Origin: Pectobacterium araliae
GTDB lineage: Bacteria; Pseudomonadota; Gammaproteobacteria; Enterobacterales; Enterobacteriaceae
Length of the DNA: 64,000 nucleotides
Direction: 5' to 3'
Assembly: GCF_037076465.1 (NCBI RefSeq)
Contig: NZ_AP028908.1
Location: forward strand, 3,100,001-3,164,000
Shown here one piece after another: positions 60 through 23,009 of the stretch. A model generated the notes under the pieces. The model was given only the letters and a program-made list of their open reading frames with translations, was not told where the DNA came from and ran no database searches. Position numbers and translations under genes: made by a program. Each line of letters opens with the position of its first letter. Positions within the stretch are counted from its first letter, which is position 1.

Positions 60-324
60 AATGAGTTTTGCCGTTATCCGGCGTAAAAATTATGCTGAGG
101 AGATAGCAGGCTTAGGATGAGCCGCATGGACGCGGCTCAAGCTTGCGCCACGTCGGGAACGTGTCGCAAGCGGTCCTCTAAGCCTGATACCGACGAAGGC
201 ACCGCTTTAGCGGCATAATTCCCGCCAAAAGCCGGGGTTCACAGGGGGCTGGCGTAGCCCCCTGTGTCGGGCGCGTGCTACGACGTAGCATGAAAATGGC
301 GGTATGATGGCGCACGAAACCATT
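60..324. repeat. Structured dispersed repeat, copy A
   Basis: Non-coding element directly 3' of the aldo/keto reductase gene and related to the element at 10507-10800. Helices read from the sequence: P1 88-95 with 213-220; P2 107-115 with 178-186; P3 119-125 with 132-138 (loop contains TGGA); P4 141-147 with 165-171 plus 149-152 with 160-163 (loop TCGGGAA); P5 CCGC/GCGG around 202-212; P6 240-250 with 256-266 (11 bp); P7 276-281 with 285-290. The linkers GAAGGCACC, CCCGCCAAAAGCC and TCGGGCGCG are shared with copy B, as is the end GCGCACGAAACC (310-321). The left terminal arm is degenerate here. The strand, if it is transcribed, cannot be decided. I do not recognise a named family. Confidence 0.85.
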
Positions 325-362
325 TCCAAGCCTGCATAGAATGTGACGAAGAAAGCCGCTTC

Positions 363-1328
363 CTAATAGCGACTCGCATGATCCAACAGCTCAATATCTT
401 CTGCCGGCAGCACCAGCCGCGTCGCACTCGCCAGCTCAACAACCTGCTCCAGCGATGTCGCACTGGCAATTGGTGCCGTGATGCTCGGACGAGCAATCAG
501 CCATGCCAATGCAACCTGTGATGGCGTCGTCTGATGCGCATTCGCCACGCTATCCAACGCTTCCAAAATGGTGCGACCGCGCTCGTTCAGGTATTTTTCT
601 ACGACACCCTGCCCGCGTGCGCTTTTCGACGCATCCTTCGGCTGACGATACTTGCCAGACAAGAACCCGCTAGCCAGCGAATAATAGCTAATCACCCCGA
701 CGCCTTGCTCACGCACCAGCGGTTCCAGTGCGGCTTCATAGCCCTGCCGATCGTACAAATTGTATTCCGGTTGCAGCGTTTCATACCGCGCCAGATGATT
801 GGCTTTACTGACTTTCAGCGCTTCCGCCAGACGCTCAGCACTGTAGTTAGACGCCCCAATCGCGCGTACCTTACCTTCTTTAATCAGCGCATCAAACGCG
901 GCCAGCGTCTCTTCCAACGGCGTTTCTTTGTCATCCGTGTGTGCCTGATAGAGATCGATGTAGTCCGTTTGCAAGCGCCGTAATGAGGCCTCGACCGCCT
1001 GACGAATATAAGCAGCAGACAGCCCTTTCTTGCCCTCGCCCAGATCCATGCCGACTTTGGTGGCAATAATCACCTTGTCACGCTGGCCGCTTTTTTTCAG
1101 CCAGTTGCCGATGATGGTTTCAGATTCACCACCCTGATTACCGGGTGCCCAACGCGAATAAACATCGGCGGTATCAATGAAATTCAGCCCGTGCGCTAGC
1201 AGCGCATCCAGCAGGCTGAACGACGTCGATTCGTCAACCGTCCAGCCAAAGACGTTACCGCCGAAAGAAAAAGATGGAACCACGATCCCTGAACGTCCAA
1301 GCTCACGTGTGGTATCTGATACTGACAT
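363..1328 (-). CDS. Aldo/keto reductase
   Basis: 321-residue NADPH-dependent oxidoreductase of the aldo/keto reductase superfamily; a cytoplasmic TIM barrel reducing aldehydes or ketones, natural substrate unknown. The catalytic tetrad of the family is visible: Asp52 and Tyr57 (DTADVY), Lys91 (IIATKVG) and His130 (YQAH). The C-terminal SQVALAWLIARP segment is typical. The ATG at 1328 is chosen because AAGGAG lies 7 bases upstream in the mRNA; a GTG two codons earlier is a poor alternative. It is monocistronic, divergent from nupC, and ends next to repeat copy A. Confidence 0.9.
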   Translation of the reverse strand: MSVSDTTRELGRSGIVVPSFSFGGNVFGWTVDESTSFSLLDALLAHGLNFIDTADVYSRWAPGNQGGESETIIGNWLKKSGQRDKVIIATKVGMDLGEGKKGLSAAYIRQAVEASLRRLQTDYIDLYQAHTDDKETPLEETLAAFDALIKEGKVRAIGASNYSAERLAEALKVSKANHLARYETLQPEYNLYDRQGYEAALEPLVREQGVGVISYYSLASGFLSGKYRQPKDASKSARGQGVVEKYLNERGRTILEALDSVANAHQTTPSQVALAWLIARPSITAPIASATSLEQVVELASATRLVLPAEDIELLDHASRY

Positions 1329-1467
1329 AATCACTCTCCTTTTAAGTCATGCAGAAAACATCATAAAAAATCCCGCCTACCTGCAACCTAAAGTAGGGTG
1401 ACGCAACTTTCTGTATGGGATAAGAATAATGAATGAACAGAAAGGCGCAAATAACGAGACGTAGCAT

Positions 1468-1496
1468 TTAGTTTAGATAAAATCCCAAGGTATAAT
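1468..1496 (+). promoter_or_regulatory. Possible nupC promoter
   Basis: A consensus -10 hexamer TATAAT at 1491-1496 lies about 90 bases before the nupC start. The matching -35 (around 1468-1473, TTAGTT) is poor, which would fit an activator-dependent promoter. I did not find a convincing CRP or CytR site, although nupC of E. coli uses both. Confidence 0.35.
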
Positions 1497-1585
1497 TGTT
1501 TTTTTGCGTTCTTCCTCTCATTTTTAGTGCATGCGTTACATAAAATGACGTGGAAAATTTGGCCTGCCTCATATTTGGAGCACAC

Positions 1586-2782
1586 ATGTCCTTGTCCCAT
1601 ATCGCGCAATTTATTCTGGCGCTGGTTGTTGTTGCGGCGCTATCGCTACTCGTCTGCCGCGATCGTAAAAGTATTCGTATTCGTTTTATTATTCAGCTAC
1701 TCGTCATCGAAATTCTGCTCGCTTACTTCTTCCTGTACTCAAACATTGGGTTAGGTGTGGTCAAAGGGTTCGCAGCAGTCTTCGACAAACTACTCGGATT
1801 TGCGGGCCAAGGGACGGACTTCGTATTCGGTGACATGGTGAATAGTGAGAAGAACCTGATTTCCTTCTTCTTCAAAGTGCTCTGCCCTATCGTCTTCATT
1901 TCTGCGCTGATCGGTATCCTGCAACACATTAAAGTGCTGCCAATCATCATCCGCGCTATTGGTACGATCCTGTCCAAAGTGAACGGCATGGGCAAACTGG
2001 AATCCTTTAACGCAGTCAGCTCACTGATTCTCGGCCAGTCCGAAAACTTCATTGCCTACAAAGACATTCTGGGCAAGATGTCCGAAAAACGTATGTACAC
2101 CATGGCCGCTACCGCCATGTCCACCGTGTCGATGTCCATCGTCGGTGCGTACATGTCTATGCTGGATGCCAAATTCGTCGTTGCCGCGCTGATTCTGAAC
2201 ATGTTCAGTACCTTCATCGTGCTGTCACTGATTAACCCCTACAAAGTCGGTGAAGAACCGGAATTGCAGTTGGGTAATCTGCATGAAAATCAGAGCTTCT
2301 TTGAAATGCTGGGCGAATACATTCTGGCGGGCTTCAAAGTTGCCGTCATCGTGGCCGCCATGCTGGTCGGTTTCATTGCACTGATTGCGGCAGTCAACGC
2401 CATTTTCAGCGCCATTTTCGGTATCAGCTTCCAGGAAGTCCTCGGCTACGTGTTCTATCCGTTCGCCTGGATCATGGGTATCCCGTCTCATGAAGCGCTT
2501 CAGGTGGGTAGCATCATGGCAACCAAACTGGTTTCTAACGAATTTGTCGCAATGCTGGAACTGCAAAAAGTGGCAGGCGAACTGTCTCCGCGCAGCGTGG
2601 GTATTCTGTCCGTGTTCCTGGTGTCTTTCGCCAACTTCTCGTCCATCGGTATTATTGCGGGCGCGATTAAAGGGCTGAATGAGCAACAGGGCAACGTCGT
2701 TTCCCGTTTTGGCCTGAAACTGGTTTACGGTTCTACGCTGGTGAGCATCCTTTCCGCCGCTATCGCGGGTCTGGTGCTGTAA
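1586..2782 (+). CDS. nupC: Nucleoside permease NupC
   Basis: 398-residue inner-membrane concentrative nucleoside transporter (CNT family), importing nucleosides with protons. The sequence can be aligned along its full length with E. coli NupC (400 residues), including the core motif region [17 protein letters not shown], with about ten hydrophobic segments. The ATG at 1586 follows TTGGAG at 1575-1580 and gives the usual family length; an upstream in-frame start would add 12 residues lacking a Shine-Dalgarno. It is a single-gene unit followed by a strong terminator. Confidence 0.95.
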
Positions 2783-2814
2783 CCCCAGATCACGTTATAA
2801 AATTCTTATCCCAG

Positions 2815-2845
2815 TCCGGCAGGCTTACACTGCCGGATTTTTTTT
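2815..2845 (+). terminator. nupC rho-independent terminator
   Basis: Stem TCCGGCAG (2815-2822) with CTGCCGGA (2830-2837), 7-base loop, then eight T (2838-2845). It lies 33 bases after the nupC stop. Confidence 0.9.
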
Positions 2846-2955
2846 CCTACAAACCCTGACACATCTTCCATATTTCCTTCATTTTTGTCCGGCATCCACT
2901 GTTTAAACTAGTAAAATGCGGCCATTGGTCCAATAACGTGCTGGGTATAACTGCC

Positions 2956-2986
<31 letters not shown>

Positions 2987-3028
2987 GATCGTGCTTCCCG
3001 CGCAACCTGGAGAGAGTAATCCACCACT

Positions 3029-4264
3029 ATGAATGCTAAACGTATCCGAGGCCTGCTGGTACTTGCCGCCGTTATCGCTATTGCTGTACTGATCTGGCGC
3101 CATTTTACCCAGACATCGCCTGCCGCCAACGGCACGAGTGAACAGCACGCCGCCCGTACGTCACATTCGGGAAATAACGCCGCTGGTGGTGGACGCAGAG
3201 CGGCCATGCGCACGCTGGCTCCCGTGCAGGCGGCGCTGACGCAATCCGCCTCCGTGCCTTATTATCTCTCCGGTTTAGGCACCGTAACGGCGGCCAATAC
3301 TGTGACGCTGCGCAGTCGGGTGAACGGGCAACTGATGGCGCTGCACTTTCAGGAAGGGCAACAGATTAAGGCTGGCGATCTGCTGGCAGAAATCGACCCG
3401 CGTCCTTTTCAGGTCGAACTGACGCAGGCACAGGGGCAATTGGCAAAAGATCGTGCCGTGCTGGCTAACGCTCAGCAGGATTTAGCGCGCTATCAGCAAC
3501 TGGTGAAAACCAACCTGATCTCCCGTCAGGAACTGGATGCGCAGACCGCCGCGGTGCGTCAGGCGGAAGGCTCGCTAAAAGCCGATGAAGGTGCCGTCGC
3601 CAGCGCACAACTCCAGTTGGATTACAGCAAGATCACCGCGCCTATCAGCGGTCGGATCGGTTTAAAACAGGTCGATGTGGGGAATTACATCACCAGCGGC
3701 GACACCAATGGCATTGTCGTGATTACGCAAACGTACCCTATCGATGTCGTCTTTACCGTGCCGGAAGCGGAAATCGCCACCATTATTAGCGCACAAAAAT
3801 CAGGGCAGCCGCCCGTGGTCGAAGCCTGGGATCGCGCCAATCAGAAGAAACTCTCGCAGGGTAGCCTGCTCAGTATGGATAACCAGATCGACACCACCAC
3901 CGGTACGATCAAGCTCAAGGCGCGTTTTGACAATCTAGATGATACCCTGTTCCCGAACCAGTTCGTGAATATCCGCATGAAGGTCGATACGCTGCAAAAC
4001 GCCGTCGTCGCCCCCTCCGCCGCGGTGCAAATGGGTAATGAAGGCCGCTTCGTCTGGATTCTGAATGATAAAAATGAAGTCAGTAAGCGTCAAATCACGA
4101 CCAGTATTCAGTACGGTCAGTTGGTTGTGGTGACCGCCGGACTGGATGCCGACGTTAAGGTTGTCACTGACGGCATCGACCGTCTGACTGAAGGAACCAA
4201 AGTGGAGGTCGTTCCCTCTACGCTAACGGAGAAAACACCTGCCATCACTGGGGAGAAATCCTGA
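3029..4264 (+). CDS. mdtA: Multidrug efflux periplasmic adaptor MdtA
   Basis: 411-residue membrane-fusion protein linking the MdtBC pump to an outer-membrane channel (TolC in E. coli). An N-terminal hydrophobic anchor (about residues 7-24) is followed by a Ser/Gly/Ala-rich linker. Next come the lipoyl half-motifs ([20 protein letters not shown]), a long alpha-hairpin rich in Gln/Ala (about 125-185), and the beta-barrel domain. First gene of mdtABC; its stop overlaps the mdtB ATG by one base. In E. coli the operon is induced by BaeSR in response to envelope stress; baeSR lie downstream here. Confidence 0.95.
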
Positions 4265-7200
4265 TGCAGGATACCGTTCCAGCCAGCGGCGGCGGGCCGT
4301 CACGCCTGTTTATTCTACGCCCCGTCGCAACTACGTTGTTAATGTTCGCCATTCTGTTGGCCGGTATCATTGGCTATCGGGCGTTGCCAGTGTCCGCGCT
4401 GCCTGAAGTCGATTATCCGACGATTCAGGTCATTACCCTGTATCCCGGTGCCAGCCCCGACGTGGTGACCTCGGCGATTACCGCGCCGCTGGAACGGCAG
4501 TTCGGCCAGATGTCCGGGCTAAAACAGATGTCGACACAGAGCGCAGGCGGCGCATCCGTCATCACGCTTCAGTTCCAACTTGAGCTGTCGCTGGATGTCG
4601 CGGAGCAGGATGTACAGGCCGCCATTAATGCGGCAAGCAATCTGTTGCCAAGCGATCTGCCCTACCCACCCACTTACAGCAAAGTGAATCCAGCCGATCC
4701 GCCGATTATGACGCTGGCTGTCACCTCCACCGTAATGTCGATGACGCAGGTACAGGACATGGTGGACAATCGCATCGCGCAAAAAATTTCGCAGGTCGCG
4801 GGTGTCGGGCTGGTGTCGTTAGCCGGTGGCCAGCGTCCTGCCGTGCGGGTAAGGCTGAACGCGCCAGCGCTGGCGGCTTACGGCCTGACCAGCGAAACCA
4901 TTCGCACCGCCATTACCGCTGCCAACGTGAATTCCGCCAAGGGGAGTCTGGATGGCCCAACGCGCTCAGTGACGCTCTCTGCCAACGACCAGATGAAATC
5001 TGTTGATGATTACCGCAAGCTGATTGTTGCGTGGAAAAACGGCGCACCGGTAAGGCTTCAGGATGTAGCCACGATTGAGCAGGCCGCCGAGAATATTCAT
5101 CTCGGCGCCTGGGCGGATCGACAGCAGGCGATCATTATCAACGTTCAGCGCCAGCCAGGTGCTAACGTCATCACGACCACGGACAGCATTAACAAGATGC
5201 TGCCCGCGTTAAAATCCAGCCTGCCAAACGCCGTCGAAGTCACCACGCTGACCGACCGCACCACCAGCATTCGTGCCTCAGTAAAAGATGTCCAGTTCGA
5301 GTTGCTACTGGCGATCGCACTGGTTGTGATGGTGATTTACCTGTTTTTGCGTAATGCCGTTGCCACGCTGATCCCCAGCATTGCCGTACCGCTGTCGCTG
5401 GTCGGCACCTTTGCCGCCATGTATTTCCTCGGTTTTTCCATTAATAACCTGACGCTGATGGCGCTCACCATCGCGACGGGTTTCGTAGTAGATGATGCCA
5501 TTGTGGTGATCGAAAATATCTCACGGTATATCGAAAAAGGGGAAAAGCCGCTTAACGCCGCGCTGAAAGGGGCGGGAGAAATCGGCTTCACCATCATTTC
5601 CCTGACCTTCTCACTCATCGCCGTGCTGATCCCCCTGCTGTTTATGGGTGATATCGTCGGACGCCTGTTCCGAGAGTTTGCCGTGACGCTAGCGGTATCG
5701 ATCCTGATTTCTGCCGTTGTTTCACTCACGCTGACCCCCATGATGTGCGCACGGATGCTGAGCCATCAGTCGCTAAGTAAACAGAACCGTTTTACGCGTG
5801 CCAGCGAGCGTTTCTTCACCCGTCTGATCAATGTCTACGGCGTCTGGCTACGCAAAGTACTCAATCATCCGTGGCTGACGCTCAGCGTCGCACTGGGTAC
5901 ACTTCTGCTCACTATCCTGCTCTATATCTGGATTCCGAAGGGCTTCTTCCCGCTACAGGATAACGGCATCATTCAGGGCACAATACAGGCGCCGCAGACG
6001 GTGTCCTTCAGCAATATGGCCGACCGCCAGCAGCGCGTCGCATCCATCATCATGAAAGATCCGACGGTGGAGAGTGTGTCCTCGTTCATCGGCGTTGATG
6101 GCACGAATGCCGCGCTAAACAGCGGCCGACTGCAAATAAACCTGAAACCGCTCAGTGAACGCAGCGAACGTATTCAGGCGATCATCAGCCGCCTACAACA
6201 GCAGACCGCCCAAATTCCCGGCATCCAACTGTATCTGCAACCGGTGCAGGATCTCACCATCGACACCCAAATTAGCCGCACGCAATATCAGTTTACCTTG
6301 CAGGCGATGTCGCTGGACGAGCTGAGCCAGTGGGTGCCCAAGCTGATGACTGAGCTGAAAAAGCTGCCGCAGCTAGAGGATGTCAGCAGCGACTGGCAAG
6401 ACGGCGCCGCGGTCGCCTACGTCAACGTGAACCGCGACAGCGCCAGCCGTCTGGGCATCACCATGTCACAGGTCGATAGCGCGCTGTACAACGCTTTTGG
6501 TCAGCGTCTGGTTTCCACCATCTATACGCAAGCCAGCCAGTACCGCGTGGTGCTGGAGCACGATACGACCAACAATACCGGTCTGGACGCGTTGAATGAC
6601 GTGCGTCTCATCAGCAGCGACGGCGGTACGATCCCACTCAGCAGCATTGCCACCATTGAAGAGCGTCAGGGGCCGCTGGCGATCAACCATATCGACCAGT
6701 TCCCGTCGACGACAATTTCCTTCAATGTCGCCAGCGGCTATGCGCTAGGCGAAGCGGTTGATGCCATCACGCAGGCCGAGCAGCAGATGAATCTGCCTGC
6801 GGATATCACTACCCGTTTTCAGGGCAGTACACTGGCGTTTCAGTCGGCGCTGAGCAGCACCGTGTGGCTCATCGTGGCGGCGATTGTCGCGATGTACATT
6901 GTACTCGGCGTGCTGTACGAAAGCTTTATTCACCCGATCACCATCTTGTCTACATTGCCAACGGCGGGCGTCGGTGCGTTGTTGGCGCTGATGATGGCGG
7001 GGAATGAGCTGGATGTGATCGCCATTATCGGGATCATCTTGCTCATCGGGATCGTGAAGAAAAACGCCATCATGATGATCGACTTCGCGCTGGCGGCGGA
7101 ACGAGAGCAGGGCATGACACCGTATGACGCGATTTATCAGGCCTGTCTGCTGCGTTTCAGGCCAATTTTGATGACCACCATGGCGGCGCTGCTGAGTGCG

Positions 7201-7386
7201 CTGCCACTGATGCTGAGCACTGGCGTCGGCGCGGAACTGCGCCAGCCGCTAGGGGTCTGCATGGTTGGTGGCCTGATCATGAGCCAAATCCTGACGCTGT
7301 TTACCACACCGGTGATTTACCTGCTGTTTGACCGTCTGGCGATACGTTTCCGCCATACGCCACGTCAAGAGGAAGAAACCGAGTGA
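4264..7386 (+). CDS. mdtB: RND multidrug transporter subunit MdtB
   Basis: 1040-residue inner-membrane RND proton antiporter subunit. The first membrane helix is near residues 20-38. A large periplasmic porter loop follows, then the TM4 motif [14 protein letters not shown] with the paired Asp residues of the proton relay. A second hydrophobic half starts near residue 535. MdtB and MdtC assemble as a heterotrimer in E. coli and export bile salts, novobiocin and related compounds. Translation is likely coupled to mdtA (1-base overlap) and to mdtC (4-base overlap). Confidence 0.96.
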
Positions 7387-10300
7387 AGTTCTTCGCCCTG
7401 TTCATCCACCGCCCCGTCGCCACCCTGCTGCTGACGCTGGCCATCGCGCTTTGTGGCGTATTAGGTTTCCGCCTGTTGCCCGTGTCGCCGCTGCCGCAGG
7501 TGGATTTCCCTGTGATCTCGGTCAGCGCCTCGCTGCCCGGTGCTTCACCGGAAACCATGGCCTCAGCCATTGCCACACCGCTGGAACGTGCGCTCGGTAG
7601 AATTGCAGGCGTCAGCGAAATGACCTCCACCAGCTCGCTCGGCAGTACGCGCGTCATTCTGGTGTTTAACCTCGACAGGGATATCAACGGCGCAGCGCGC
7701 GATGTACAGGCGGCCATTAACGCCGCGCAGAACCTTCTACCGTCCGGCATGTCCAGCCGCCCAACCTACCGCAAAGTCAATCCGTCCGACGCGCCGGTCA
7801 TGATTTTGACGCTGACCTCGGACACCTACAGTCAGGGGCAGCTGTACGACTTTGCCTCTACCCAGCTGTCGCAGAAAATTTCGCAGATGGAAGGCGTTGG
7901 CGATGTCTCCATCGGCGGGAGTTCACTCCCCGCCGTGCGCGTCGCGCTGAATCCGGTGGCGCTGTTTAATCAGGGCATTTCCCTTGATGAGGTACGACAG
8001 GCTATCGCACAGGCGAACGTGCGTCAGCCGCTGGGGAATGTGGAAAACAGCCAGAAAAGCTGGCAGATACAAACTAACGATGAACTCAAAACGGCTGATG
8101 CCTACGCGCCGCTGATTATCCACTACAACAACGGCACCGCCGTCCGTCTGAGCGACGTCGCCACGGTAGAAGATTCAGTCCAGAACGCCCGCAATGCAGG
8201 AATGGCGAACGCGAAGCCTGCGATTCTAGTGATGATTCGCCGTGCGCCGGATGCCAACATTATTACCACGGTAGACAATATCCGCGCCGCGATGCCGGAA
8301 CTGCGCGCCAGCCTGCCAGCCGAAATACAGTTGGATGTCGCACAGGATCGCTCCCCCACCATTCGCGCCTCGCTGGCGGAAGTAGAGCAATCGCTGATTA
8401 TTGCCGTCGCACTGGTTATTCTGGTCGTCTTCCTGTTCCTGCGTTCAGGGCGGGCGACGGCTATTCCGGCGCTGGCCGTCCCAGTCTCATTGATTGGCAC
8501 CTTCGCCGCCATGTACCTGTGCGGCTTTAGTCTGAACAACCTGTCGCTGATGGCGCTTACCATTGCCACTGGCTTCGTGGTGGATGACGCCATCGTAGTG
8601 TTGGAGAATATCTCCCGCCACATCGAAGCGGGCATGAAGCCGCTCCAGGCGTCACTTCAAGGGGTGAGAGAAGTCGGGTTCACCGTTTTATCGATGAGCC
8701 TGTCGCTGGTGGCGGTATTCATCCCGCTGCTGCTGATGGACGGGTTACCGGGGCGGTTATTCCGCGAATTCGCCGTCACACTGTCGGTGGCGATCATGAT
8801 TTCCCTGCTGATCTCGCTCACGCTGACGCCGATGCTGTGCGCACGACTACTGCGAGCGGTTCCCAAGCGCAGCCAGCCGCGCACTCAGGGGTTTAACCGC
8901 GTACTGCTCGCCATGCAACAAGGCTATGGGCGATCGCTGAAATGGGTACTTAACCACGCATGCTGGGTTTTGCTGCTCCTGCTGGGAACGATCACGCTCA
9001 ACGTCTGGCTGTATATTAGCATTCCGAAAACCTTCTTTCCTGAGCAGGACACGGGCAGGCTGATGGGCTTCATTCAGGCTGACCAGAGCATTTCTTTTCA
9101 GGCCATGACGGTGAAGCTCCAGAATTTCATGACCATTGTCAGCAGCGATCCCGCAGTGGATAACGTGAACGGATTTACGGGTGGGTCGCGCACCAACAGC
9201 GGCTCGATGTTTATCTCGCTTAAGCCACTGTCCGAGCGCGATGTTTCCGCACAGCAGGTCATTAGTCGCCTGCGCATCAAGCTGGCAAAAGAACCCGGTG
9301 CCAGCCTGTTTTTAATGCCCGTGCAGGATATCCGTATCGGCGGTCGGGAATCGAGCGCCGGGTATCAGTACACGCTCCTGTCTGATGATTTGAGCGAACT
9401 GCGTACCTGGGAGCCAAAGATTCGTGCCGCTTTCAGTAAACTGCCTGAAGTGGCCGATGTGAACTCCGATCAGCAGGATAAAGGCGCAGAAATGGCGTTA
9501 ACCTATGATCGTGATGCGATGGCACAGTTGGGCATCAATGTCTCTGCCGTCAATGCGTTGCTTAATAACGCCTTCGGCCAGCGTCAGATTTCGACCATTT
9601 ATCAACCGTTAAACCAGTACAAGGTGGTGATGGAAGTGGACGATGCCTACACGCAGGATGTCAGCTCACTGAATAAGATGTTCGTCATCAATAAAGAAGG
9701 TAAGCCAATTCCGCTTTCTTATTTCGCCAGTTGGAAGCCGATCAACGCGCCACTGTCGGTAAACCATCAGGGACTCTCTGCCGCGTCCACTATCTCTTTT
9801 AACCTGCCAGAAGGCACCGATCTTTCCACTGCCACAGCGGCAGTAGAAAGAACCATGACGTCACTGGGTGTGCCATCCTCGGTACGCGGTCAGTTCTCCG
9901 GTACGGCGCAGGCGTTCCAGCAATCACAGTCTTCTCAGCTGTTGCTGATTCTGGCGGCGATTATCACGGTGTATATCGTGCTGGGTGTGCTGTATGAGAG
10001 CTATGTGCATCCGCTGACGATTCTATCCACCCTGCCCTCAGCGGGCGTGGGGGCACTGCTGGCGCTAGAATGGTTTGGCGTACCGTTTAGTCTGGTGGCG
10101 CTGATTGGGATCATGCTATTGATTGGGATCGTGAAAAAGAACGCGATCATGATGGTGGATTTCGCACTGGTGGCGCAGCGCAGCGACAAGCTGAACGCGC
10201 AAGACGCCATTTTTCAGGCCTGTCTGCTACGCTTCCGCCCGATTATGATGACCACATTAGCCGCACTGTTTGGCGCACTGCCGCTGGTGCTGACCAGCGG

Positions 10301-10463
10301 TGACGGTGCAGAGTTGCGTCAACCGCTCGGCATCACGATTGTCGGCGGGCTGGTGATGAGCCAAATCCTCACGTTGTATACCACCCCGGTGGTGTATCTG
10401 TTTTTCGACAAGCTGAGGAATATTCGGCGCAAAACACCGGAGAAGGATTTGTCACTGTCGTGA
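7383..10463 (+). CDS. mdtC: RND multidrug transporter subunit MdtC
   Basis: 1026-residue RND subunit paralogous to the preceding gene (same FAMFIAT-like fold order; [14 protein letters not shown] proton-relay motif; [16 protein letters not shown] in the second half). The start is a GTG at 7383 overlapping the mdtB TGA, so the two subunits are probably translationally coupled. It is the partner of MdtB in the heterotrimeric pump. The next operon gene, mdtD, does not follow directly: 420 bases containing repeat copy B intervene. Confidence 0.96.
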
Positions 10464-10506
10464 CGGAACATGAGTAACGGTAAAGATCTAATAACATGCT
10501 ATTTCT

Positions 10507-10800
10507 GGGGAGGTTTCGTGCGCTTAACTCGCAACGAACTCCCACCTTGGCGTAAATTATGCTGAGGGAAAAGCATACTCTCGGATAAGCGGCATGGATG
10601 CCGCGCAAGCCGATGCCGCGTCGGGAACGCGTCATCGGCGGTCCGCAAAGAGGATGCTTTTCCCGAAGGCACCGCATAGCGGCATAATTTCCCGCCAAAA
10701 GCCAGGGTTCCAAGGGCGACGGCAATTGAGCCGCCCTTGGTCGGGCGCGTTCGGAACGCTACTAGAAAAACGGTGATGCTTGAGCGCACGAAACCTCCCC
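10507..10800. repeat. Structured dispersed repeat, copy B
   Basis: 294-base element between mdtC and mdtD. It is closed by a perfect 18-bp terminal inverted repeat, 10507-10524 with 10783-10800. Inside are P1 10554-10562/10682-10690 (9 bp), P2 10566-10576/10654-10664 (11 bp), P3 10589-10594/10599-10604 (loop TGGA), P4 10609-10615/10633-10639 with inner 10617-10620/10628-10631 (loop TCGGGAA), P5 CCGC/GCGG, P6 10710-10718/10732-10740 and P7 10747-10751/10755-10759. Each helix corresponds to one in copy A at 60-324 but P2, P3, P4, P6 and P7 have different bases that still pair. Short reading frames inside it are incidental. Confidence 0.88.
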
Positions 10801-17376: not shown

Positions 17377-17470
17377 GCTGAGAAAACATAGAACGAAAAA
17401 TAAGCGTAGTGATACTACTAGGAACCACCTCCTTGGCCAGCTCAATCTCCCTTGAGCTGGCTTTTCTTTT
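17377..17470 (+). ncRNA. cyaR: Small regulatory RNA CyaR (RyeE)
   Basis: 94-nt Hfq-dependent sRNA gene. The 5' end GCTGAGAAAACAT resembles E. coli CyaR (GCTGAAAAACAT). The seed region AGGAACCACCTCCTT (17420-17434), complementary to Shine-Dalgarno sequences, is identical to the E. coli molecule as I know it. The terminator is a perfect 10-bp stem 17436-17445/17452-17461 with loop TCTCCC (E. coli has the same loop on a different stem) and tail TTTTCTTTT. The position after yegQ is the E. coli position. CyaR represses ompX, luxS, nadE and others in E. coli. A group II intron begins at the next base. Confidence 0.92.
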
Positions 17471-19391
17471 GTGCGCCGGGCATGGCGCGTAGCGCCTTGA
17501 CGGGCGCTGTCCGTTGACTGTAGTGGTCAAGGGGCGACTTGGCGGTGAAAGTCCTCTACACACCCGGCAAGGGGAAGTGTTAGCCGAACGGCAAGGGTGC
17601 CCACCGCGAGGTGGGATCTGAAGGAAGCTGAAGGCAAAATGCTGGCCTGACGAACAGGAAGCAGTTTAGGCGGCACAGCGGGGTAAGGTGGCAAATATCA
17701 TCAAAGCCCAATACTTGCACAGAACGCTGTGACGTAAAGCTGACAGGCATAAGCAGGAAGGTCGCGCGAATTACCCCGGGAGGGCTGCACGTTTGCTTCA
17801 GGGCTACCGAGCGTCGAGAGGCGACGGGATGAACGTGCAGCAGTCAGCCGAAGCCGTAGTAGTGCTGCATAACTGGCAGCATGAAGGGCTGAACATGATT
17901 AACCGTGATTAGGACACCGATACTCGATGGGAATTAATGAGGCACAAGCGCAGAGCACTGCGGCCAGCGGCAGAGGAGACGGACAGTATCCGTCAGTGCT
18001 GCATGAGGGTGCTGAAATCCCCACGGCGGTCGGTGGGCAAACGAAAGCGGAAATGCCGTTGACGATGGAAACGGTGATAACGAGAGAGAACCTGATGCTG
18101 GCCTATCAGCGCGTGGTGGAAAACAACGGCGCGGCAGGGGTAGATAACCTGAAAGTGACGGAGTTGAAGCCGTGGCTGAAACAGAACTGGGCGAGTATCA
18201 GGCAGGCATTGATTACGGGCGCCTACCAGCCGCAGGCGATACGCAGAGTGGATATCCCAAAGCCGGACGGCGGCGTGAGAACCCTGGGTATCCCGACGGT
18301 AGTGGACAGGCTTATCCAGCAGGCGATAGCACAACAACTCAGTCCGGTCGTGGAGCCGCACTTCTGCGAATCGAGTTACGGGTTCAGAAGTAACCGCAAT
18401 GCGTGGCAGGCAGTGCAACAGGCACAGCGCTACATACAAAGCGGGAAACGCTGGGTGGTCGATCTGGATCTGGAAAAGTTCTTTGACCGGGTGGATCATG
18501 ACATTTTGATGTCACGTCTGGCGAGGCATGTCAGGGATAAACGGCTGTTGAAACTGATACGTCGCTACCTTGAAGCGGAAATGACGAACGGGTGCGAGAC
18601 AGAGAAGCGAGGTAAGGGAATGCCGCAGGGCGGACCGTTGTCGCCGCTACTGTCGAACATTCTGCTGGATGAACTGGATAAAGAACTGGAGCGTCGAGGT
18701 CACAGCTTCTGTCGCTATGCGGATGACTGCAACATTTACGTGAGCAGTCGCAAAGCAGGCGAGCATATCTTTAGGGCAATCAGGGTGTACCTGAGAGACA
18801 TACTGAAGCTAAAGGTCAATGAGCAGAAGAGTGCGGTGGCGCGACCGTGGGAGCGTAAGTTCCTGGGATACAGCGTGACACGGCACAAACAGACCCGACT
18901 GAAGATCGCAGGGAGCAGTGTCGAGAGGCTGAAGGAGAAGATCCGTAGCCTGACGACAGGGCACGCGACGAAATCAGTGAAAGGCGTAATCAATGAACTC
19001 ACACCGATACTGCGAGGCTGGATGAGCTACTTCAGATACACGGAAGTAAAAGGAGTTCTGGAGAAGATTGACGGCTGGGTCAGGCGTAAACTGCGCAGTC
19101 TACTGTGGCGGCAATGGAAACGAACGTATACGCGAGCCCGAATGCTAATGCGAGCGGGCTTGTGTGAAAAGCGAGCGTGGAGGTCGGCGAGTAACCAGCG
19201 AGGAGCGTGGTGGAACGCGGGGTCGAGTCACATGAATGATGCGATAAAGACGGCGCAGTTCAGACGACTCGGCTTGATATCACTAGTGGAGCAGCAACGG
19301 CAGTTCCAGAGTTAACATGAACCGCCGTATGCGGAACCGCACGTACGGTGGTGTGAGAGGACGGCGGGAGTAATCTCGCCTCCTACTCGAT
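17471..19391 (+). mobile_element. Group IIC (bacterial class C) intron, complete
   Basis: 1921-base self-splicing retroelement starting GTGCG at 17471 and ending CCTACTCGAT at 19391. Domain V is at about 19319-19353, immediately after the maturase stop. Its lower stem ACCGCCGT/ACGGTGGT contains the CGC triad typical of class C rather than AGC, and it has a 2-base CG bulge. Domain VI is the hairpin around GGCGGGAG/CTCGCC with a bulged A. Class C introns target the base of rho-independent terminators, and this one follows the cyaR terminator tail with no spacer. The single intact ORF suggests it may be active. Confidence 0.92.
17927..19315 (+). CDS. ltrA: Group II intron reverse transcriptase/maturase
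   Basis: 462-residue intron-encoded protein inside domain IV. RT blocks in order: VDNLKVTELKPWL, PKPDGGVRTLGIPTVVDRLIQQA, SSYGFRSNRNAWQAV, VVDLDLEKFFDRVDHDILM, MPQGGPLSPLLSNILLDELD, and the catalytic RYADDCNIYV (YADD at 264-267). A maturase domain X follows (LTPILRGWMSYFRY) with a basic C-terminus. No HNH endonuclease domain is present, as expected for class C. The frame is uninterrupted. The first in-frame ATG is used; the N-terminal 40 residues are low-complexity and translation could begin later. Confidence 0.93.
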   Translation: MGINEAQAQSTAASGRGDGQYPSVLHEGAEIPTAVGGQTKAEMPLTMETVITRENLMLAYQRVVENNGAAGVDNLKVTELKPWLKQNWASIRQALITGAYQPQAIRRVDIPKPDGGVRTLGIPTVVDRLIQQAIAQQLSPVVEPHFCESSYGFRSNRNAWQAVQQAQRYIQSGKRWVVDLDLEKFFDRVDHDILMSRLARHVRDKRLLKLIRRYLEAEMTNGCETEKRGKGMPQGGPLSPLLSNILLDELDKELERRGHSFCRYADDCNIYVSSRKAGEHIFRAIRVYLRDILKLKVNEQKSAVARPWERKFLGYSVTRHKQTRLKIAGSSVERLKEKIRSLTTGHATKSVKGVINELTPILRGWMSYFRYTEVKGVLEKIDGWVRRKLRSLLWRQWKRTYTRARMLMRAGLCEKRAWRSASNQRGAWWNAGSSHMNDAIKTAQFRRLGLISLVEQQRQFQS

Positions 19392-22611: not shown

Positions 22612-22650
22612 AAATCTCCCAACCGGCGTGGAAGAAGGCGGCAACCGGTG

Positions 22651-22740
22651 GGCATACCGTGACTTCCCTACGCTGGCATTATCCAGTTCAGGTGGTACGG
22701 GTATTTCTCAGCCTTCACAAAGAAGGGCACCCCGAGTCAT
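22651..22740 (-). promoter_or_regulatory. TPP riboswitch (THI element)
   Basis: On the minus strand the conserved core is seen in order: CGGGGTGCCCTTC, GTGAAGGCTGAGAAATACCC, GTACCACCTGAACTGGATAAT, GCCAGCGTAGGGAAG. This is the canonical thiamine-pyrophosphate aptamer, 40 bases from the thiM ATG. GC-rich self-complementary sequence (CCGGTTG / CGCCGGTTG) between aptamer and the GGGAG site could be the switching hairpin, suggesting translational control as for E. coli thiM. Confidence 0.95.
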
Positions 22741-23009
22741 TTAAAATCAAAATGTTGCGATTAATGTTTTATTAATCTTCGATCAGGATAATGCCAGTGG
22801 GCAGTATTGTAAATGGACATCCAATCCTACTAGTGTCCAGCGGATATTGACCTTATCCACAAGCAGTGGACTAAACAAGGTTCTGGTTCCCAAACAGTTC
22901 CTGACTGATATCACCACAGGTACTCTGAAGAATCAGCGAGTTATCTCCTTTCGCCAAAGAAGTCTGTATTCGATCAAATTTTTATTTTTTTGCGCATTAT
23001 TGACATTGT

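Follow-up and report, generated by a model that had tools for sequence, protein, structure and literature searches.

The closest described relatives of the repeat reported here are the TwoAYGGAY RNAs (RF01731), which were reportedly presented in 2010 without a function. On the strength of motif matches, a 2014 paper proposed that TwoAYGGAY binds CsrA (PMC4333381), and the available excerpts of two reports describe CsrA/RsmA sites as GGA in hairpin loops that are generally paired (PMC4333381, PMC4383904). The excerpted TwoAYGGAY literature does not describe the family as a mobile repeat. For dispersed stem-loop families, the accessible part of a survey of 40 genomes listed BoxC, Eco-1, ERIC and PU-BIME in Escherichia coli (PMC2267715). 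ERIC/IRU, REP/BIME, BoxC and YPAL are intergenic, palindromic and dispersed like the present repeat but are listed at 40-169 bp compared to approximately 250 bp per unit here. No description of the present repeat was found in the open-licence literature among the matches listed.

In the window, the whole stretch of 64,000 nucleotides of Pectobacterium araliae that was analysed, two intergenic copies were confirmed at 60-324 (copy A) and 10507-10800 (copy B) as the initial annotation had placed them. The copies showed a DNA identity of 74% (blastn match) and a shared architecture in which the helices differ in sequence yet stay paired. For example, P2 pairs as CAGGCTT/AAGCCTG in copy A (within 95-113/180-198) and as GGGAAAAGCAT/ATGCTTTTCCC in copy B (within 10562-10581/10650-10668). 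P1 is arranged around P2 and P5, and P2 around the tandem hairpins P3 and P4, while the region 3' of P1 contains P6 and P8, the latter around a small P7. P8, the stem closing the 3' domain, had been omitted from the layout first proposed. The 18-bp terminal repeat of copy B was exact (GGGGAGGTTTCGTGCGCT at 10507-10524 is the reverse complement of 10783-10800) but belongs to the element ends and not to the fold, as a head-to-head unit pair was found at the site of copy B in five of 24 genomes of the genus. Copy B looks like a one-unit derivative of such a pair. The fold of copy A was better than all 200 shuffles (z -4.86) and that of copy B better than all 100 (z -7.49). A covariance model (R1) built from 12 own-genome copies scored copy A at 244.3 bits (full model) and copy B at 241.4 bits, scores which are not independent since both copies were among the 12 sequences. 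The features of both copies were as follows:

76..319, + strand: copy A structured unit (covariance-model extent)
88..220, + strand: copy A P1-P5 domain (P1 88-94/214-220, P2 95-118/173-198, P3 121-125/132-136, P4 141-153/159-171, P5 202-205/210-213)
126..131, + strand: copy A P3 loop ATGGAC, GGA hairpin 1
154..158, + strand: copy A P4 loop CGGGA, GGA hairpin 2
240..317, + strand: copy A 3' domain (P6 240-253/255-266, P8 267-274/310-317, P7 approximately 275-290 by eye)
310..354, + strand: copy A right end, GCGCACGAAAC and a remnant of the outer inverted repeat (outer limit approximate, by eye; fuller ends in same-site relatives)
10507..10524, + strand: copy B left terminal inverted repeat, 18 bp, exact
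10545..10793, + strand: copy B structured unit, between two + strand genes which we take to be mdtC- and mdtD-like
10555..10689, + strand: copy B P1-P5 domain (P1 10555-10561/10683-10689, P2 10562-10586/10641-10668, P3 10589-10593/10600-10604, P4 10609-10621/10627-10639, P5 10672-10675/10679-10682)
10594..10599, + strand: copy B P3 loop ATGGAT, GGA hairpin 1, fits AYGGAY
10622..10626, + strand: copy B P4 loop CGGGA, GGA hairpin 2
10710..10791, + strand: copy B 3' domain (P6 10710-10723/10728-10740, P8 10741-10748/10784-10791, P7 approximately 10747-10759 by eye)
10783..10800, + strand: copy B right terminal inverted repeat

The comparison with Rfam that had been proposed for the repeat showed no match over threshold at 60-324 or 10507-10800, and HEARO, omega-RNA and group II intron identities were rejected as none of them matched at the copies. 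The repeat was initially assigned to no known family, which is true at the Rfam threshold; below the threshold, however, its core relates to TwoAYGGAY (gathering threshold 43 bits; clan CL00106, which also holds RsmY). When RF01731 was compared with six own-genome copies, copy B scored 37.8 bits and three others 31.3-35.4 bits, all below threshold, while copy A (L010) had no RF01731 match and copy L002 only a 19.9-bit RsmY match from the same clan (both at E≤5). No RF01731 match was found in the own genome at E≤0.001. R1 matches in other families of the same class coincided with RF01731 matches of at least 45 bits (L227, L228, L229, L230 and L231), and a coordinate comparison showed that the RF01731 threshold is also passed within the own family, by at least 11 R1 units from other genera. 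Loci L070, L071 and L211 passed it directly, with example units scoring 47.2, 47.0 and 43.5. Judged by these coinciding matches, the unit core is homologous to TwoAYGGAY as a divergent branch of the named family. The window copies were not filed as members because they fail TwoAYGGAY on score and on the second loop. In 149 genomes of the family, RF01731 matched 21, of which 12 over threshold; 15 genomes were shared with R1, six had RF01731 only and 31 had R1 only, together 52, and none of 14 control genomes was matched by RF01731. TwoAYGGAY and the unit share a P2 closing stem around two tandem GGA hairpins with a short joint between them, and a CGG...CGU.AAG joint after P4. In other families of the class, TwoAYGGAY is likewise multi-copy and has neighbours placed head-to-head (for example 1853353(-) and 1853592(+) in genome G624), but the present units go beyond it in having P5, P6, P7, P8 and defined ends. 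What is new in the repeat is the P5-P8 domain, together with the ends formed by inverted repeats, the pairing of units head-to-head and the high number of copies, and it looks like an undescribed mobile branch of this little-studied family.

The own genome contained at least 14 R1 matches, and blastn with copy B produced 11 further long copies with 70-81% identity and several partial ones. A DNA search matched all 24 genus genomes (own included) with at least 16 to 24 matches each and none of 16 genomes from other genera of the order. The covariance-model search of relatives that had been suggested carried the repeat beyond the own genome to 46 of 149 genera of the family (one genome per genus). 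R1 also matched 18 of 197 genomes in the order sample (seven of the own family) and 12 of 274 in the class sample (own genome included); the three samples overlap, and many order and class matches were part-length, covering P2-P4. A pattern scan gave at least 118 stretches with 80 loci listed, of which 34 were tested with R1 and 31 confirmed while the other 46 were judged to be chance by organism. Carriers confirmed by R1 were Citrobacter, Silvania, Leclercia, Lelliottia, Enterobacter, Huaxiibacter, Klebsiella pneumoniae and Salinicola. In E. coli, a two-unit blastn query matched at least one place in 5261 of 5426 genomes with a median of three places, a count which rests on DNA matches; R1 confirmed two E. 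coli loci. MG1655 has a truncated unit between yegH and asmA (L095:3996-4155, R1 29.2 bits). None of the E. coli blastn relatives was annotated among the 30 matches listed, and the K-12 repeat RSA is a candidate identity. A phage or plasmid origin was rejected as copy B had no match in 50,697 phage and 72,556 plasmid records. The two-unit query from genome G100 had no phage match and matched 29 plasmid records, some being as large as chromosomes.

The own genome and other genera provided many further copies whose stems are paired. Out of 111 R1 matches, 102 were used (group A, n=43; group B, n=59) and nine were excluded, namely eight below 59 bits and the part-length L084:1906. The covariation set consisted of 32 of the 43 group A copies from six genera including the own, the other 11 being dropped for set size only. 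In this set, the 68-pair structure was paired in 95.9% of 2174 cells compared to 30.5-43.9% for slid versions, and changes on both sides were found at 40 of the 68 pairs; a given pair position held as many as five standard pair types. The covariation score of 0.415 exceeded both that of shuffles (0.163) and those of slid versions (0.051-0.083), and none of 500 shuffles reached the observed value on any of five measures. The covariation survived alignment of the copies. Group B, from other genera, was aligned and folded separately and again produced P3, P4, P5, P6 and P8; P1 and the lower P2 were not recovered in that fold of 59 copies. On the read strand, G-U pairs were more frequent than A-C oppositions in group A (169 vs 37), in group B (160 vs 101) and in the 32-copy set (94 vs 18), where 45 of the 94 G-U cells came from two pairs. 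P1 had no G-U excess in group A (8 G-U, 11 A-C), and P5 was reversed in group B (5 G-U, 24 A-C). The excess of G-U over A-C indicates that one strand folds, which on balance is the read strand in single-stranded form, as RNA or as DNA. Overall, the multi-branched fold is conserved and selected on one strand.

The P3 loop contained GGA in 100 of 102 copies (43/43 in group A, 57/59 in group B) and the P4 loop in 101 of 102 (42/43 in group A and 59/59 in group B, where the window took in some stem columns), while the stems varied. The median spacing between the two GGA was 28 nt in the 97 units measurable by pattern. The P4 loop was mostly GGGA. The AYGGAY pattern was fitted by the P3 loop in 53, by the P4 loop in only three and by both loops in none of the 102 copies, which distinguishes the units from TwoAYGGAY. 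Total GGA per unit was not above shuffles (4.3 vs 4.75 in group A; 6.9 vs 6.7 in group B), so that only the P3 and P4 loop sites are conserved and the unit is not a many-site sponge like CsrB. The unit carries GGA in the loops of paired hairpins, the sequence feature of CsrA/RsmA-binding RNAs. It shares GGA in hairpin loops, generally in pairs, with CsrB, CsrC, RsmY and RsmZ as these are described in excerpt, but has two conserved GGA loops where those sRNAs have many. It is also a dispersed repeat, whereas CsrB is a single locus, and unlike those sRNAs it has no promoter of its own detected in 19 head-to-head gaps.

Head-to-head neighbouring units were found in at least nine of 28 loci searched, and 19 measured head-to-head gaps were 56-273 bp long. 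In G100, two composites on two contigs were 96.8% identical over 723 bp, which speaks for recent copying. At the mdtC-mdtD site, element sequence was kept in all 24 genus genomes searched, as a full head-to-head pair in five, a single + unit as in copy B in four, a single - unit in eight, a - unit with pieces in three, two - units in one, a chimera of both in one and remnants only in two (G006 and G011). At the site of copy A, a unit was found in 16 of 24 genus genomes, one of them part-length, with 13 oriented as copy A and three reversed; for the other eight the right anchor fell outside the locus stretch. Terminal inverted repeats as in MITEs were present, with 18 bp in copy B and longer imperfect ends by eye in site A relatives, whose fuller left ends are TGTCTCTTAGTCACAT...GGTTTCGTGCGC. 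We take TGTCTCTTAGTCACAT at these outer ends to be close to the Tn5 end sequence, and the ends of some composites in other genera presumably resemble IS1 ends. The ends would thus resemble those of IS50-like and IS1-like MITEs, but the payload of the repeat is a conserved fold. The initial choice of a structured RNA or a MITE turned out to be no choice, as both fit: a one-strand folding unit lies inside a dispersed element with inverted-repeat ends.

Locus L014 of the own genome (match 3263378-3263449) is a deletion derivative that keeps only the P6-P8 part with ends, and is flanked by a near 9-bp duplication (GGTTAATCT/AGTTAATCT). No agreed target duplication was found in the other composites examined, and no clean empty site was found at E. 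coli tauA-mmuM (17 genomes covering at least 80% of the query), proX-ygaY, site A or mdtC-mdtD. A search for the Tn5 dimer domain matched none of 24 genomes, its control being silent too. An autonomous version was rejected as inspection by eye of the ORFs listed for the two widest gaps between head-to-head units (2.4 and 1.2 kb) revealed no recognisable transposase. In addition, the P4 loop of some units (L013:1310-1631, L184, L190, L192, L142, L148, L150, L260, L262 and L266) is the exact location of a module of approximately 75 nt with several hairpins (ACAAAAACGTC...GACGTTTTTG, GCCCGAAGGGC). The module was found in at least three genera (the G000 genus, G144 and G053), and in related species some same-site copies have it while others lack it. 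By eye, the last bases of the unit and its flank were tandemly repeated in units of approximately 18-50 bp at L078:1753-1812, L100:4539-4760 and L074:2197-2240.

The repeat is a dispersed family with head-to-head pairs, inverted-repeat ends and two near-invariant GGA loops 28 nt apart. With a probability of roughly 55%, we read it as a non-autonomous dispersed element, formerly or still mobile, whose payload is one or two head-to-head RNA units of the TwoAYGGAY superfamily that serve as a putative CsrA/RsmA dock. On transcription of a copy, the P3-P4 pair would dock one CsrA/RsmA dimer, and the copies could then act as dispersed CsrA-binding sites, either as decoys or as CsrA-controlled islands in transcripts. 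The probable role of the outer domain (P1, P5, P6 and P8) is to present the double hairpin and shield it, and a transposase acting in trans on the ends may have moved the element.

The alternative that survives best, which we nevertheless hold to be unlikely, is a DNA device without RNA function, in which the unit strand would adopt its fold during transposition, as single-stranded DNA or a cruciform, with a transposase or a host DNA-binding protein recognising the loops. The inverted-repeat ends and head-to-head units would suit such a device, as would the persistence of both orientations at one site and the lack of promoter signal in the gaps, where a divergent promoter was rejected for want of excess (mean 7.87 vs 8.02 shuffled, 19 gaps). 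Single-stranded DNA also tolerates G-T pairs, which makes the G-U excess compatible with it; a cruciform, however, is not expected to show strand asymmetry. The two GGA loops in a context like that of CsrA sites, the homology to an RNA family of the clan holding RsmY and the failure to recognise a transposase in the two widest gaps argue against the device.

A rather improbable alternative is an old repeat family without present function, in which covariation arose from few amplified masters and block exchange and the copies are decaying. The copies at both window sites are old, fixed throughout the genus and marked by deletions and mosaics, and G006 and G011 keep mere remnants between mdtC and mdtD. 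A same-site test on 10 of 15 extracted units (the five with the 75-nt insert were excluded) showed double changes at 21 pairs, mostly as shared splits (3-to-7 or 5-to-5), a pattern that suggests an exchange of blocks among the copies and not 21 events. By these shared splits, part of the double changes is from block exchange. Block exchange among decaying copies, however, does not sit well with up to five standard pair types at one pair, with the independent recovery of P3, P4, P5, P6 and P8 in the divergent 59 copies, with GGA loops that are near-invariant in 102 copies or with near-identical copies within one genome (G100).

Gene context from crude longest-ORF calls at 39 loci was convergent in 19, tandem in 18 and divergent in two, compared to four, 15 and seven, respectively, for window gaps of at least 100 bp. 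The repeat therefore prefers gene 3' ends. Single units in tandem places had the same orientation in eight cases and the opposite in six; this mixture, together with either orientation at one site, argues against the unit acting in cis on the message beside it. Inverted flanks with a score of at least 10 were found in seven of 15 composites compared to 7.6% of mispaired controls, partly from the element's own ends, and these terminator-like flanks are suggestive of insertion into terminator loops, confounded by the same inverted ends. A cis-acting 3'-end element used by the host at gene ends as a message stabiliser or terminator-like structure, like REP/BIME or ERIC, is very improbable, for although 37 of 39 loci are not divergent and the flanks of some composites resemble terminator arms, tandem units show no clear orientation preference, a stabiliser needs no invariant GGA loops, promoter avoidance alone could give the 3'-end bias and the inverted-flank result is only suggestive.

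If the mobile element with a putative CsrA/RsmA dock is the right reading, a wider one may be drawn tentatively: a selfish family, numerous in each genome, in relatives of E. coli and beyond, each copy of which carries an RNA dock for a CsrA dimer and thereby taps the host's master post-transcriptional regulator. Element transcripts might then be shielded or silenced via CsrA, or free CsrA might be tuned by copy number, and the TwoAYGGAY RNAs would be the core of this mobile family. The repeat links the orphan TwoAYGGAY family to an arrangement that is repeated, head-to-head and mobile-looking, and putatively to the global regulator CsrA. If the copies bind CsrA, repeat copy number would become a variable in Csr regulation, and a repeat with such spread would explain many 'empty' intergenic regions.

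Other RNA elements were found near copies of the repeat or elsewhere in the window. Beside the own-genome copy at L013, a C4 antisense RNA scoring 66.3 bits was found at L013:631-818 along with sub-threshold matches to isrK and c4-target, which suggests a prophage or satellite near that copy. In the window, group II intron matches (RF02001, RF01998 and RF00029) were found at 17600-19391 with a 462-aa ORF at 17927-19315, and the CyaR sRNA lies just upstream at 17383-17467. Finally, a TPP riboswitch aptamer was identified at 22648-22744 (-).
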